The notes beneath the pieces are model-generated. The model was given only the letters and a program-made list of their open reading frames with translations. It was not told where the DNA came from and did no database searches. DNA of 64,000 nucleotides from Halorubrum trapanicum. GTDB taxonomy: Archaea; Halobacteriota; Halobacteria; Halobacteriales; Haloferacaceae. Location of the stretch: NCBI RefSeq assembly GCF_017873555.1, contig NZ_JAGGKE010000001.1, positions 248,001-312,000 of the forward strand, written 5' to 3'. Shown here one piece after another: positions 22,533 to 28,835 of the stretch (position 1 is its first letter; every line of letters begins with the position of its first letter). The position numbers and the translations under genes were made by a program.

Positions 22533-24488
22533 ATGGACGACTCCGGGGGCGACGGTCGGCTCGTCGACGGCGACGGAGACGTCGTCCCGCCGCCGGCAGA
22601 GTTTCGTCGGCGAGCGGTCGCGAGCGACCCCGCGGTGTACGAGCGGTTCGACCGAGAGGGACCGGACGCGTGGCGCGCGGCCGCCGACCTCCTGACGTGG
22701 GAGCGCGAGTACGAGACGGTCCTCGACGACTCCGAGCCGCCCTTCTACGAGTGGTTCCCGGACGGGCGGCTCAACGCCGCGGCGAACTGCGTCGACCGCC
22801 ACCTCGACGAGCGGCGGAACCAGCTCGCGATCCGGTGGTTCGGGAAGCGCGGCGAGCGCCGGTCGTACACCTACCTCGACCTCCACCGCGAGGTGAACGC
22901 GCTCGCGGCCGGACTCCGCGACCTCGGCGTCGAGGAGGACGACGTGGTGACGCTGTACCTGCCGATGATCCCGGAGCTGCCGATCGCGATGCTGGCGTGC
23001 GCCCGGATCGGCGCGCCGCACAACGTCGTGTTCGCGGGGCTGTCCGCGGAGGCGCTCGCGACGCGGATCGACGCGGCCGACTCCGAGTTCCTGATCACCT
23101 GCGACGGCTACTACCGCCGGGAGGACGCGTTCAACCAGAAGTCGAAGGCGGACAACGCTCGGATCCGCGCCGAGGGGGAGCTGTCGGCCGCGGTCGTCGT
23201 CGACCGCCTCGGCGACGAGCTGTCGGTCTCGCTGGGCGACGACGAGCGGGAGTACGGCGCGCTCGTCGACGCGCACGACGGCGAGACGGTCGAGCCGGTC
23301 GCCCGCGACGCCACCGACCTCCTCTTCGTGATGTACACCTCGGGAACGACCGGGCGGCCGAAGGGGGTCGAACACGCGACGGGCGGCTACCTCGCGCACG
23401 TCGCGTGGACGACGCGGAACGTCCTCGACGTGCGGCCCGAGGACACCTACTGGTGCGCCGCCGACATCGGCTGGATCACCGGCCACTCCTACGGGGTGTA
23501 CGGTCCCCTCTCCGTCGGAACCACGAGCGTGCTCTACGAGGGCTCGCCCGATTACCCCGACCGCGACCGCGTCTGGGACCTGATCGAGCGCAACGCGGTG
23601 AGCGTCTTCTACACCTCGCCGACCGCGATCCGGTCGTTCATGAAGTGGGGCGCGGAGTACCCCGACGCCCACGACCTCTCGTCGATCCGCCTGCTGGGGA
23701 CGGTCGGCGAGTCGATCACGCCGAAGGCGTGGCGCTGGTACCGCGAGCACGTCGGCGGCGGCGACGCGCCCGTCGTCGACACGTGGTGGCAGACCGAGAC
23801 CGGAGCCATCGCGCTCGCGACGCTGCCGGGCGTCACGCCGATGAAACCGGGGAAGGTCGGCCCGCCGCTCCCGGGTATCGACGCCCGCGTCGTCGACGAG
23901 GACGGCGAGGCGGTCGAACCCGGCGAGTCCGGCTACCTCACGCTCGCGTCGCCGTGGCCCGGGATGCTCCGCGGGCTCCGCGAGGGCGACGAGCGCTACC
24001 TGCGGGAGTACTGGCTGAAGGGGGAGGACGGCTGGCGCTACCGGACCGGCGACGGCGCGGCCGTCGACGAGGAGGGCTACGTCACGATCCTCGGGCGCGT
24101 CGACGACGTGATCAACGTCCGCGCCCAGCGGTTCAACACCGGCGAACTGGAGGCGGCCATCGTCGACGCCGCGGGCGTGACCGAGGCCGCGGTCGTCGGC
24201 GACGGTGACGGGCACATCGTCGCGTACGTGACGACCAAAAGCGGCGTCGAGCCGGACGGGACCCTCCGAAACGCCATCGCGGACCGGCTGGCGAGCGCCG
24301 TCGGCGACGTGGCCCGCCCGGACCGGGTCGTCTTCACCCCGGAACTCCCGAAGACCCGCTCGGGGAAGATCATGCGGCGGCTGCTGGAAGACATCGCCCG
24401 CGGCGAGGAGTTCGGCGACGTGAGCGCGCTCCGCAACCCGGAGGTCGTGGGCGAGATCGAGTCGACCGTTCGGAACGGGAGTAACTGA
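22533..24488 (+). CDS. acs: Acetyl-CoA synthetase paralogue 1 (AMP-forming, diverged C-terminus)
   Basis: Activates acetate or a similar short acid to acyl-CoA via acyl-AMP. 651 residues with P-loop-like YTSGTTGRPKG (268-278), VDTWWQTETGA, which keeps the Trp that limits the pocket to short acids, and the regulatory Lys612 in PKTRSGKIMRR. Unlike paralogue 2, the hinge region reads INVRAQRFNTGE instead of NVSGHRLGTME (from about 528), and the HxIKGEAxYAYV loop is shortened to GHIVAYV. This suggests a changed substrate or regulation. A box AAAGTATACATTT precedes the ATG by 21-33 bases. It opens the organic-acid module. Confidence 0.88.
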   Translation: MDDSGGDGRLVDGDGDVVPPPAEFRRRAVASDPAVYERFDREGPDAWRAAADLLTWEREYETVLDDSEPPFYEWFPDGRLNAAANCVDRHLDERRNQLAIRWFGKRGERRSYTYLDLHREVNALAAGLRDLGVEEDDVVTLYLPMIPELPIAMLACARIGAPHNVVFAGLSAEALATRIDAADSEFLITCDGYYRREDAFNQKSKADNARIRAEGELSAAVVVDRLGDELSVSLGDDEREYGALVDAHDGETVEPVARDATDLLFVMYTSGTTGRPKGVEHATGGYLAHVAWTTRNVLDVRPEDTYWCAADIGWITGHSYGVYGPLSVGTTSVLYEGSPDYPDRDRVWDLIERNAVSVFYTSPTAIRSFMKWGAEYPDAHDLSSIRLLGTVGESITPKAWRWYREHVGGGDAPVVDTWWQTETGAIALATLPGVTPMKPGKVGPPLPGIDARVVDEDGEAVEPGESGYLTLASPWPGMLRGLREGDERYLREYWLKGEDGWRYRTGDGAAVDEEGYVTILGRVDDVINVRAQRFNTGELEAAIVDAAGVTEAAVVGDGDGHIVAYVTTKSGVEPDGTLRNAIADRLASAVGDVARPDRVVFTPELPKTRSGKIMRRLLEDIARGEEFGDVSALRNPEVVGEIESTVRNGSN

Positions 24489-24557: not shown

Positions 24558-24797
24558 ATGAACACCAGCGTCTTCTCGCGGGACGCGGTCCACGCCCGCC
24601 GCCGTGCGGTCGTCAAGACCCTCTGCTACCGGGCGTTGATGGTGACGATCACGGTCCTGGTCGCGTGGCTCGTCGTGGGCGACGCCGGTCAGGCGGCGAG
24701 CATCGGTGTCGTAACCAACGCCGTAAAGACGCTCACTTACTACGGCTACGAGCGTCTGTGGGACCACGTGGCTTGGGGCGTCGGCGCCTCCGGCTGA
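24558..24797 (+). CDS. DUF2061 small membrane protein
   Basis: A 79-residue protein with two predicted membrane helices: LCYRALMVTITVLVAWLVVG and the region after NAVKTLTYYGYERLWD. RRAVVKTLCYRALMV and AVKTLTYYGYERLWDHVAWG are characteristic of DUF2061, a family of unknown role that also occurs fused to sulfate-metabolism and other enzymes. It lies between the first acetyl-CoA synthetase and the regulator, read in the same direction. Twelve bases after its stop begins the first copy of the twin inverted repeat. Confidence 0.85.
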   Translation: MNTSVFSRDAVHARRRAVVKTLCYRALMVTITVLVAWLVVGDAGQAASIGVVTNAVKTLTYYGYERLWDHVAWGVGASG

Positions 24798-24808
24798 CCG
24801 CGCCGATC

Positions 24809-24836
24809 GTTTCGGAAACTGATTTAGAGCCGAAAC
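24809..24836. promoter_or_regulatory. Inverted repeat GTTTCGG-N14-CCGAAAC, distal copy
   Basis: Seven-base arms at 24809-24815 and 24830-24836 with a 14-base spacer. The left arm continues as GTTTCGGAAAC, itself a palindrome. The same arms and exact spacing recur at 24927-24954, 118 bases on, before the regulator ATG. Likely a protein-binding site; the binder is unproven. Confidence 0.65.
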
Positions 24837-24926
24837 AGATCGATCGGAAACCGAGCTCGATCGGGAGACGGCTCGTGACATCGTGTCGAACTCTGCCGTA
24901 GACGGGTCATCTTCCGGAACAGTTTT

Positions 24927-24954
24927 GTTTCGGGTACTTGTTGAGTTCCGAAAC
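24927..24954. promoter_or_regulatory. Inverted repeat GTTTCGG-N14-CCGAAAC, proximal copy
   Basis: Arms at 24927-24933 and 24948-24954, ending three bases before the regulator's ATG (24957) and overlapping its core promoter (AGTTTTG, 24921-24927). Arms and spacing match the distal copy, but the spacer sequence differs, which points to selection on the arms. Placement fits autoregulation by repression. Confidence 0.68.
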
Positions 24955-24956
24955 GA

Positions 24957-26744
24957 ATGGTCGACGGTCTCGACGCGGACGCCTACGACGCGCTCGTCAC
25001 CGCCGCGGAGACGTATCGCGCGGCGCTCGTCGTCAGGCTGGCGGGCGAGGCCGGACTCCGAACCGAGGAGATCACCCGCGTCGCCCCGCGACACCTGCGC
25101 GAGGCGGAGTCGGTCGCGAGCGCTCGGATCCTCGCGGTGCCCGCGACCGACGGCGACGAAAGCGCGGGCGCGGAGTCGACCCTGTCCGGGGCGGAATCGA
25201 TCGACAGAGAGACCGTCGTACCGGCCTCTCTGGCCGCCGGTCTCGACCGATACGCGACGAGCGAGGGTCTCGGCGACGACGACCCGTACGTCGACGTCTC
25301 TCCCCGCCGGGTCCAGATGATCGTGAGCGAGACGGCGGCGCGGGCGGCCGGTCTCACCGACGCCGCGCTCGACGAGCGGGTCACGCCCAGCGTCCTCCGG
25401 AAGACGTTCGCTCGCCGGATGCTCGTCGAGCGCGGCGTCGACCCGCGGGCGGTCCGCGACGCGGGCGGCTGGGAGTCGCTCGGCACGCTCGACGGCTACC
25501 TCGATCCGCTCGACGGGGAGGCGCTCGCGGCCGCGATAGCCGGTGAGGAAGACGCCGAGGGCGCGCCGGCGGAGCGGACCGGAACGACCGTCTTACCGGG
25601 GTTCGAGGCGCTCGCGGAACCCGGGTCGGCGGATCCCGTCACGGCGGTTCCCGCGGGCTTAATCGAGACCGACCGCTGGGCCGAGGCCTGGGTCGTCCGC
25701 CGGGCGGTCGGAGGCGAGCGGGCCGACGTGGCCGCGACCGCGGGCGTCGACCGAGAGACCCTCGCGGACCGGGGCGCGACCGCCGAGGGACCGTGGTCGG
25801 CCGCGATAGCGGACCGCACGCCGGCCGCGATCGACGGTAGCCAAGCGACGGGGGGGCGGCCGGCGGTCGCGGTGCCGGCGGTCTACGAGGGCGTCGTTCA
25901 CGGGGCGCTCTGCGTCGTCGCGGCGGACGACGATCCGGCGGACGAGACCGAGCGGCGGGCGCTCGCCGCCCTCGGCCGGTGTCTCGGGCGGGCGATCACC
26001 GCGGACCGGTGGCGGGAGCTGCTCCACTCGGACGCGGTCACCGAAGTCGAGTTCCACACGACCGACGAGGGGGCGTTCCTCGCCCGCGCGAGCGAGCGAC
26101 TTGGCTGCCGGATCGAGCTGGCGTCGACCGTCGACGTCGACGACGACGTCTCCCGCGCGTACCTCTCCGTGGAGGGCGCCCGCCCGCAGGACTTCGCGGC
26201 CGTCGTCGAGGCGTCGACTGGCGTCTCCGACTTCCGGGTGATCGAGACGCGGGAGGACGGCTGTTCGGCGTCGCTCCGCCTCGCGGGCGGGTCGCTGGTG
26301 CGGGCGCTCGTCGACCACGGGGCGACGGTCCGCGACGCGTCCGCCGCCGACGGCCGGGTCCGCGTCGTCGCCGACTTCCCCGAGGGAACGAACGTCAGGC
26401 CCGTCGCCGACGGCCTCCGTGACCGCTTCGCTGATGTCCGACTCGCCAGCAAGGAGTCCGTCGCGCGCTCGCCGCGCGCGGAGTCGTCGCTGCGGGACGG
26501 GATCGCCGACCGGTTCACGGATCGCCAGTGGGCCGCGCTGTCCGCGGCGTACCACGGCGGCTACTTCGACTGGCCGCGCGGGAGCACCGCCGAGGAGGTC
26601 GCCGACGCGATGGGCGTCTCGTCGCCGACGTTCCACAACCACCTCCGAAAGGCCCAGCGCGCCCTGCTCGACGGCGTCTTCGAAGACGGCGGGGAGCGGT
26701 CGGTCCGGGAGGGCGAGGAGCGCGCGGTCCGCACCGACGGGTGA
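24957..26744 (+). CDS. Bat-type transcription regulator with N-terminal tyrosine-recombinase-like domain
   Basis: A 595-residue three-part regulator. Residues 1-190 resemble the catalytic domain of tyrosine recombinases: Arg35 in GLRTEEITRV, LRKTFARRML (Arg148), GGW and Tyr181. The box II His is Ser145, so it is probably inactive and used for DNA binding. Residues about 225-350 look like a GAF sensor; 355-505 are the Bat-associated domain; 519-572 are a bacterioopsin-activator HTH_10 (DWPRGSTAEEVADAMGVSSPTFHNHL). It lies between two acetyl-CoA synthetase genes and just behind the twin inverted repeats, so it probably controls them and itself. The effector is unknown. Confidence 0.85.
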   Translation: MVDGLDADAYDALVTAAETYRAALVVRLAGEAGLRTEEITRVAPRHLREAESVASARILAVPATDGDESAGAESTLSGAESIDRETVVPASLAAGLDRYATSEGLGDDDPYVDVSPRRVQMIVSETAARAAGLTDAALDERVTPSVLRKTFARRMLVERGVDPRAVRDAGGWESLGTLDGYLDPLDGEALAAAIAGEEDAEGAPAERTGTTVLPGFEALAEPGSADPVTAVPAGLIETDRWAEAWVVRRAVGGERADVAATAGVDRETLADRGATAEGPWSAAIADRTPAAIDGSQATGGRPAVAVPAVYEGVVHGALCVVAADDDPADETERRALAALGRCLGRAITADRWRELLHSDAVTEVEFHTTDEGAFLARASERLGCRIELASTVDVDDDVSRAYLSVEGARPQDFAAVVEASTGVSDFRVIETREDGCSASLRLAGGSLVRALVDHGATVRDASAADGRVRVVADFPEGTNVRPVADGLRDRFADVRLASKESVARSPRAESSLRDGIADRFTDRQWAALSAAYHGGYFDWPRGSTAEEVADAMGVSSPTFHNHLRKAQRALLDGVFEDGGERSVREGEERAVRTDG

Positions 26745-26777: not shown

Positions 26778-26840
26778 TCACGATTTTTCGTATTTAGCGT
26801 GAGCGTTTATATGCCGATATCGGTTGGGTACGACCGTACC
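26778..26840 (+). promoter_or_regulatory. Promoter region of acs2 with inverted repeats
   Basis: TTTATAT (26806-26812) lies 29-35 bases before the ATG at 26841. TCACG (26778-26782) and CGTGA (26798-26802) form an inverted repeat upstream. CCGATATCGG (26814-26823) and GGTACG-AC-CGTACC-like palindrome (26827-26840) lie between box and start codon. These differ from the GTTTCGG sites, so a separate regulator could act here. Confidence 0.5.
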
Positions 26841-28835
26841 ATGACAGAGGGAGACGGCCAACTGGAAGCGAGACTCGCGGAACAGGAGGTATTCGAGCCG
26901 TCGGAGTCGTTCGTCGAGCAGGCGAACGTCTCCGACCCGGAGATATACGAGGAGTTCGAGGAGAACTGGCCCGAGTGCTGGGAGGCGGCCGCCGACCTGC
27001 TGGAGTGGGAAACAGATTACGACCAGGTGCTCGACGACGGCAACCCGCCCTTCTACGAGTGGTTCACGGGCGGCGAGCTGAACGCGTCGGCGAACTGTCT
27101 CGACCGACACCTCGACGAGCGCGGCGACGAGGCCGCGATCGAGTGGGTCGGCGAGCCGGTCGACGAGGACGACCGCACGTACACGTACGAGGAGCTCCAC
27201 CGCGAGGTGAACGAGTTCGCGGCCGCCCTTCGGGAGCGGGGCGTCGAGGAAGACGACGTCGTGACGATGTACATGCCGATGATCCCGGAGCTGCCGATCG
27301 CGATGCTGGCCTGCGCGCGCATCGGCGCGCCCCACAGCGTCGTGTTCGCCGGGTTCTCGGCCGACGCGCTCGCGACGCGGATGAACTCCGCGGACTCCGA
27401 GTACCTCGTCACCTGCGACGGCTACTACCGCCGCGGCGACCCGCTCGACCACCTCGACAAGGCGAACGAGGGGCTCGCGGGCGTCGAGCACGACACGACC
27501 ACGGTCGTCGTCGACCGGCTCGGGCCGAACGGCGACGACTTCGGTCACGAACTCGGCGACGACCAGATCGACTACGGCGACCTCGTGGCCGAACACGAGG
27601 GCGCCGAGGTCGAGCCGGTCACGCGCGACGCCGAGGACATGCTGTTCCTGATGTACACCTCGGGGACGACCGGGAAGCCGAAGGGCGTGAAACACACGAC
27701 CGGCGGCTACCTCTCGTGGGTGTCGTGGACCTCACAGTCGGTCCTCGACATCAAGCCGGATGACACGTACTTCTGTTCGGCCGACATCGGCTGGATCACG
27801 GGGCACTCCTACATCGTCTACGGCCCGCTCGCGCTCGGCACCACGACGATGATGTACGAGGGAACCCCGGATCACCCGGAGCGCGACCGCCTCTGGGAGA
27901 TCGTCGAGGAGCACGAGGCGACCCAGCTGTACACGGCGCCGACCGCGATCCGGGCGTTCATGAAGTGGGGGTCGAAGTTCCCGGACCGCCACGACCTCTC
28001 CTCGCTGCGGCTGCTCGGCACGGTCGGCGAGCCGATCAACCCGCGCGCGTGGAAGTGGTACTACCAGCACATCGGCGACGAGGAGTGTCCCGTCGTCGAC
28101 ACGTGGTGGCAGACCGAGACCGGCGGGATGATGGTGACCACGCTGCCCGGGGTGAAGGACATGAAACCCGGAGCGGCCGGACCGCCGCTGCCGGGACTCG
28201 ACGTCCAGATCCTCGACACGCTCGGCGACGAGGTGGAGCCGGGGAAGGCGGGCTACCTCACGGTACAGAAGCCGTGGCCCGGCATGCTCCGGACGCTGTA
28301 CAACAACGACGAGCGCTACATCGAGGAGTACTGGGCGGAGTACTCCGACACCGACAGCGACGACCCCGACGACTGGGTGTACTTCCCGGAGGACGGGGCG
28401 AAGATCGACGAGGACGGCTACATCACCGTCCTCGGTCGCGTCGACGACGTGCTCAACGTCTCCGGCCACCGGCTGGGGACGATGGAGATCGAGTCGGCGA
28501 TCGTCGGGGTCGAGGGCGTCGCCGAGGCCGCCGTGGTCGGCGGTGACCACGACATCAAGGGTGAGGCGGTCTACGCGTACGTGACCACCGAAGACGGCTA
28601 CGAGGGCACCGACGAGCTCCGCGACGCGATCGTCGCGGGCGTCGAGGACGCCATCGGCCCGATCGCGCGGCCCGAGCAGGTCGTGTTCACCCCGGACCTG
28701 CCGAAGACTCGGTCCGGGAAGATCATGCGCCGCCTGCTCGAAAACATCGCCGACGGCGAGGAGCTCGGGAACACGAGCACGCTTCGGAACCCCGAGATCG
28801 TCGAGGAGATCCAACAGAAGGCCGACGCCGAGTAG
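26841..28835 (+). CDS. acs: Acetyl-CoA synthetase paralogue 2 (AMP-forming)
   Basis: Converts acetate, ATP and CoA to acetyl-CoA. 664 residues in standard layout: ATP loop YTSGTTGKPKG, pocket motif VDTWWQTETGG, hinge DDVLNVSGHRLGTME, loop DIKGEAVYAYV, and acetylation-target Lys627 in PKTRSGKIMRR. All canonical Acs motifs are kept, so it is the better candidate for true acetate activation than paralogue 1. ATG 26841 was chosen over an upstream GTG (26799), which would include the TATA box. It is followed by the symporter pair. Confidence 0.94.
   Translation: MTEGDGQLEARLAEQEVFEPSESFVEQANVSDPEIYEEFEENWPECWEAAADLLEWETDYDQVLDDGNPPFYEWFTGGELNASANCLDRHLDERGDEAAIEWVGEPVDEDDRTYTYEELHREVNEFAAALRERGVEEDDVVTMYMPMIPELPIAMLACARIGAPHSVVFAGFSADALATRMNSADSEYLVTCDGYYRRGDPLDHLDKANEGLAGVEHDTTTVVVDRLGPNGDDFGHELGDDQIDYGDLVAEHEGAEVEPVTRDAEDMLFLMYTSGTTGKPKGVKHTTGGYLSWVSWTSQSVLDIKPDDTYFCSADIGWITGHSYIVYGPLALGTTTMMYEGTPDHPERDRLWEIVEEHEATQLYTAPTAIRAFMKWGSKFPDRHDLSSLRLLGTVGEPINPRAWKWYYQHIGDEECPVVDTWWQTETGGMMVTTLPGVKDMKPGAAGPPLPGLDVQILDTLGDEVEPGKAGYLTVQKPWPGMLRTLYNNDERYIEEYWAEYSDTDSDDPDDWVYFPEDGAKIDEDGYITVLGRVDDVLNVSGHRLGTMEIESAIVGVEGVAEAAVVGGDHDIKGEAVYAYVTTEDGYEGTDELRDAIVAGVEDAIGPIARPEQVVFTPDLPKTRSGKIMRRLLENIADGEELGNTSTLRNPEIVEEIQQKADAE

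Follow-up and report, generated by a model that had tools for sequence, protein, structure and literature searches.

Two copies of one inverted repeat form a conserved putative double operator in front of a recombinase-like/HTH_10 regulator gene of haloarchaea

In the looping operators of bacteria, such as those of lac, gal and the lambda repressor, one palindrome lies on the core promoter and a second one farther upstream, at a helical-phase distance. The dif site has a length of 28 bp, and in Cre the inner half-site is contacted by the core-binding domain. Bat, the bacterio-opsin activator, is a PAS/GAF activator that works from a UAS upstream of bop, brp and crtB1, and in Halobacterium both Bat and DmsR have an architecture of the GAF/BAT/HTH_10 type (PMC1447603). 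A family of archaeal tyrosine recombinases, fam30-04, defined by clustering at 25% identity over 60% of length, combines Phage_integrase, BAT and HTH_10 domains, and some of its members also carry GAF_2 (Badel et al. 2021, PMC8371274). The locus analysed here lies within a 64-kb stretch of the Halorubrum trapanicum genome (the window), in which two copies of one inverted repeat stand in front of a regulator gene with this set of domains (Table 1). Judging from the sequence, we propose that the two repeats are a dedicated autoregulatory double operator of the downstream regulator gene, which would act by negative autoregulation with one dimer per site, the second dimer contacting the first (probability about 0.7).

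Table 1. Features around the repeat pair, in positions of the 64-kb window
Feature	Position	Strand	Remarks
acs1	22533..24488	+	Acetyl-CoA synthetase, upstream neighbour of the regulator; synteny conserved
DUF2061 membrane protein	24558..24797	+	Sporadic between acs1 and the regulator
Distal copy (putative operator)	24809..24836	.	GTTTCGG-N14-CCGAAAC, arms 24809-24815/24830-24836
Probable BRE/TATA region	24914..24930	+	CCGGAACAGTTTTGTTT, read from sequence
Proximal copy (putative operator)	24927..24954	.	GTTTCGG-N14-CCGAAAC, arms 24927-24933/24948-24954
Regulator (595 aa)	24957..26744	+	Degenerate tyrosine-recombinase domain, GAF-like domain, BAT, HTH_10
acs2	26841..28835	+	Acetyl-CoA synthetase, downstream neighbour of the regulator; synteny conserved

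The distal copy begins 12 bp past the stop codon of the DUF2061 gene, while the proximal copy extends from the TATA-like TTTTGTTT up to 2 bp short of the ATG at 24957, and its left arm is overlapped by the probable BRE/TATA region. The arms and the spacing are as given in a preliminary description of this DNA, with a start-to-start distance of 118 bp, and the central spacers differ between the two copies. The same description had the copies bracket the promoter, which is right in placing the proximal copy at the core promoter; this copy overlaps it, so that there is no bracketing. Throughout the 3,080,988-bp genome, the exact pattern GTTTCGG-N14-CCGAAAC occurs only as these two copies, and a reversed control pattern does not occur at all. 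The shorter core TTTCG-N16-CGAAA has three matches in the genome, two of which are these copies (control 0), and relaxed matches elsewhere are single and scattered. Since these are the only exact copies in the genome and the control patterns are empty, the pair is far beyond chance, as had been surmised earlier. No other full site was found in the window. The third exact core (L122:1501-1528, corresponding to G000:C7:47968-47995) is located some 30 bp ahead of an ORF start; the ORF seems PaaB-like on visual inspection, and the match may be due to chance.

Conservation was studied in 80 distinct orthologous upstream regions, taken from Halorubrum relatives and from whole-genome relatives. The core was present at these orthologous loci in 75 of the 80 regions with at most one mismatch; at the same threshold, the gap of 16 accounts for 136 sites altogether, where shuffles average 0.39, and every other gap from 2 to 33 for at most 26. 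Both copies are recognisable in 69 of the 80 promoters (at most two mismatches each). According to the information content, the conserved core can be refined to RTTTCG-N16-CGAAAY, with a weakly constrained centre. In most orthologs the proximal copy keeps to a position of about -27 to -32 relative to the start codon, over a TATA-like element, and proximal sites alone show conserved A/T positions 2-10 bp ahead of the core. Among ten close species, the arms of the distal copy are 92% identical, compared with 38% for the distal spacer and 36% for the loop DNA. Because the pair has been kept across the haloarchaea while the surrounding DNA changed, it is very probably the switch of the regulator's own gene. 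Lineages that seem to lack the sites mostly hold variants of them: a 15-bp spacer is found in the distal copy of L101 (g48), in the proximal copy of L111 (g44) and in both copies in g55, which shows that the paired sites of a promoter can change in concert. In g13, the orthologs retain both gene and synteny, and their arms are only degenerate versions.

To assess the specificity of the pair, 293 genomes were scanned for a start codon preceded by two cores. The strict ranges of 125-155 bp and 65-95 bp gave 13 and 7 distinct places, respectively, and 19 of these 20 precede the regulator gene flanked by acs genes, the exception being G230:C1:475859. The match in G067 is also upstream of the regulator, with the gene on the other strand, and in G282, the one genome of family f7 with a genuine pair, an integrase-type ortholog likewise follows the pair. 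A looser search over 95-125 bp returned many more matches, many of them coding; those fetched precede the regulator, but as only matches with genuine-looking arms were fetched, this search is not counted as an unselected test. Exact single matches in other genomes (L075, L076, L080, L084 and L085) fall within coding sequence or unrelated DNA, and were dismissed as chance. In L078 (G093 contig 14), a reading frame with unknown residues followed by ARSEMCIRDS looks like leftover sequencing-adaptor sequence in the assembly. The link to the recombinase-like/HTH_10 regulator gene made in the preliminary description is therefore specific, and it extends to orthologs of more than 20 genera. The site is restricted to the promoter of the regulator gene and has been conserved together with it, as is expected of a dedicated autoregulatory operator, and such a pattern is the signature of a putative operator devoted to the regulator's own gene. 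It is from this strict association that we infer the regulator itself to be the binder. Conservation in cis alone cannot name the binding protein, and another, trans-encoded regulator could bind the pair and control the regulator gene; this is improbable, however, considering that a global regulator should have other sites, while the genome holds one other exact core and nearly all strict pair matches in the 293 genomes are at the regulator gene.

The order acs, sites, regulator, acs is kept in nearly all of the ortholog loci inspected, which range from Halorubrum to remote families of the order. The DUF2061 gene is present in some Halorubrum species and missing in others, and the site pair is undisturbed either way. 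The acs1 and acs2 genes of H. volcanii carry the numbers HVO_0894 and HVO_0896, respectively (PMC7746861), and from this numbering HVO_0895 is the expected ortholog of the regulator. The preliminary description had also predicted the motif before acs or symporter genes, as part of an acetate regulon. This part did not hold: the acs1 and acs2 promoters of Halorubrum lack the operator motif, which is not repeated in the genome. If the regulator controls the acs genes at all, this would have to run through another element. An alignment of Halorubrum promoters revealed a conserved CACGATTTTTCGTATTTAGCG in the acs2 promoter (26779-26802 of the window), just upstream of the TATA box. This element is unique in the genome, and is a candidate activator site of acs. 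Related TTTTG-n-ANTTAG elements are found before the downstream acs in other families, including the g13 genomes without good operator sites.

Phage_integrase, BAT and HTH_10 were detected in the regulator above the curated Pfam cut-offs, and GAF_2 is present below its cut-off. The N-terminal domain aligns by sequence with an archaeal Xer catalytic domain (4a8e, E 1.2e-17; also XerA, 5hxy), and its predicted structure resembles XerA and Cre by fold; the model of the whole regulator has a mean pLDDT of 82 and a pTM of 0.45, so that the arrangement of the domains is uncertain. The alignment to 4a8e starts at chain residue 108, and the core-binding (SAM-like) domain is absent. The residues R-K-H-R-H/W-Y that an active tyrosine recombinase should have are not conserved as a set: Arg II is found in 100% of the orthologs and W172 in 95%, Arg35 (Arg I) in 87%, position 181 is a tyrosine in 73%, and the histidine of HxxR is replaced (SVLR in the H. 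trapanicum regulator, RDLR in the ortholog consensus). R21, R84, R117, R118 and R148, on the other hand, are invariant across the orthologs.

These features bear directly on whether the repeats could be 28-bp dif-like recombination sites, at which the recombinase-like protein would delete or invert the promoter segment. The length and palindromic form of the sites do recall Xer/dif, and the protein is related to XerA and Cre. Strand exchange nevertheless needs matching crossover regions, and the spacers of the two copies differ; His of HxxR, Tyr181 and Arg35 show the losses described above, and the regulator has no core-binding domain. The recombination reading was rejected on the spacers and the active site, and we regard it as extremely improbable. 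With catalysis not conserved and invariant basic residues kept, the N-terminal tyrosine-recombinase catalytic domain is instead the most likely reading head of the putative operator. The retention of basic residues without the chemistry, combined with palindromic sites of dif length, suggests that a recombinase fold has been reused for binding, and the conservation of only the outer parts of the sites would fit the missing core-binding domain. A serious alternative, although we consider it rather unlikely, is that the encoded regulator binds the pair via its C-terminal HTH_10, with the recombinase-like domain only dimerising or tetramerising. HTH_10 is, according to its Pfam description, the accepted DNA-binding domain of Bat-type regulators, and its helix-turn-helix residues are among the invariant columns. 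The pair, however, goes with the integrase-domain ortholog, the strict scans did not find it before the many other BAT-HTH_10 paralogs of the same genomes, and the N-terminal domain keeps its five invariant arginines despite the lost catalysis.

The separations between distal and proximal copies group at 77-78, 95-97, 105-111, 115-120, 127-130, 135-141 and 148-152 bp, with further values of 123 bp and three longer ones in g24, where the distal site of some genomes lies 196-271 bp away or out of phase. Thirty genus-level events from 22 genera gave a preferred period of 10.75 bp (R 0.64, p 0.00025), and mapping onto the protein tree gave 22 inferred spacing changes of at least 4 bp, mostly of 10-12, 20-23 or 33-34 bp (p 0.0006-0.001). 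The outcome depends on the treatment of shared ancestry: p rises to 0.11 when clusters are merged across genera and to 0.95 when each of the two largest clusters (96 and 107) counts as a single event. Helical phasing of the site pair is thus likely but not settled. Of the cooperativity or looping proposed earlier, what stands is that spacing changes favour whole turns, while the strictest versions of the test are not significant. Alternatively, the two copies could work independently, with a simple operator at the proximal position and a separate activator site at the distal one, the two making no contact. The lack of significance in the most conservative tests of phasing and the few far distal sites of g24 speak for such independence, which we consider conceivable and do not favour: the tree-mapped changes prefer whole turns, and the spacings 95-97 and 105-109 turn up repeatedly, in several families, despite the unconserved DNA between the sites. 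Elements common to the loop DNA were sought between the sites, and none was shared. A GATAG-N4-CTATC dyad occurs in the middle of the segment between the sites in several g31 genomes (L067, L071 and L072).

In the proposed autoregulatory mechanism, one regulator dimer would sit on each 28-bp site, the half-sites of which lie on one face of the DNA because they are 21 bp, or two helical turns, apart. As the proximal site spans the region from the TATA element to the start codon, its occupation should block TBP, TFB and RNA polymerase and so repress the gene. At the distal site, a near-integral number of turns upstream, a second dimer would contact and stabilise the first, probably by looping out the 50-125 bp between them. 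The double operator would accordingly be probably repressing and possibly looping; activation by site occupancy, instead of repression, is also conceivable. The GAF domain may sense a metabolic signal, related to acetate or energy, and if the recombinase domain reads the sites, HTH_10 would be left free for other targets. A more speculative extension, which we put forward tentatively, is that the catalytic domain of a tyrosine recombinase has been taken over for reading and synapsing DNA in a transcription regulator, and that, without catalysis, the pairing of two palindromic sites would make a repression loop over the regulator's own promoter haloarchaea-wide.

The regulator is widespread in haloarchaea, lying between acs genes in most of the families examined, and it now gains a concrete candidate operator, through which its binding, its signal and its role in acetate metabolism become directly testable in Haloferax volcanii or Halorubrum. 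In the site pair, archaea may offer a clear natural example of double operators that depend on helical phase, and in the regulator one of a recombinase fold reused for gene control. A search of the open literature, as distinct from subscription papers, for the operator, HVO_0895 or integrase-BAT regulators returned only the domain listing of fam30-04. This family has the same set of domains as the regulator, and the likeness is by domains alone; in the part of the survey available, its entry gives the domains and says nothing of an operator, a genomic context or a function (PMC8371274). The domain family is therefore already known, while its operator, target and function were not found in the open literature, as far as that part of the survey goes. 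Compared with Bat, whose type of architecture it shares, the regulator has an integrase-like N-terminal domain instead, and its palindromic pair is at its own gene, covering the core promoter. It resembles XerA and Cre in the catalytic domain with which its N-terminal part aligns and in a palindromic site of 28 bp, but differs from them by the missing core-binding domain, the unconserved active-site residues and the non-identical spacers of the two sites. With the operators of lac, gal and the lambda repressor, the locus has in common the paired palindromes, one of them on the core promoter, and the position next to the regulator gene, whereas its promoter is archaeal, its regulator belongs to an unrelated family and its looping is putative.
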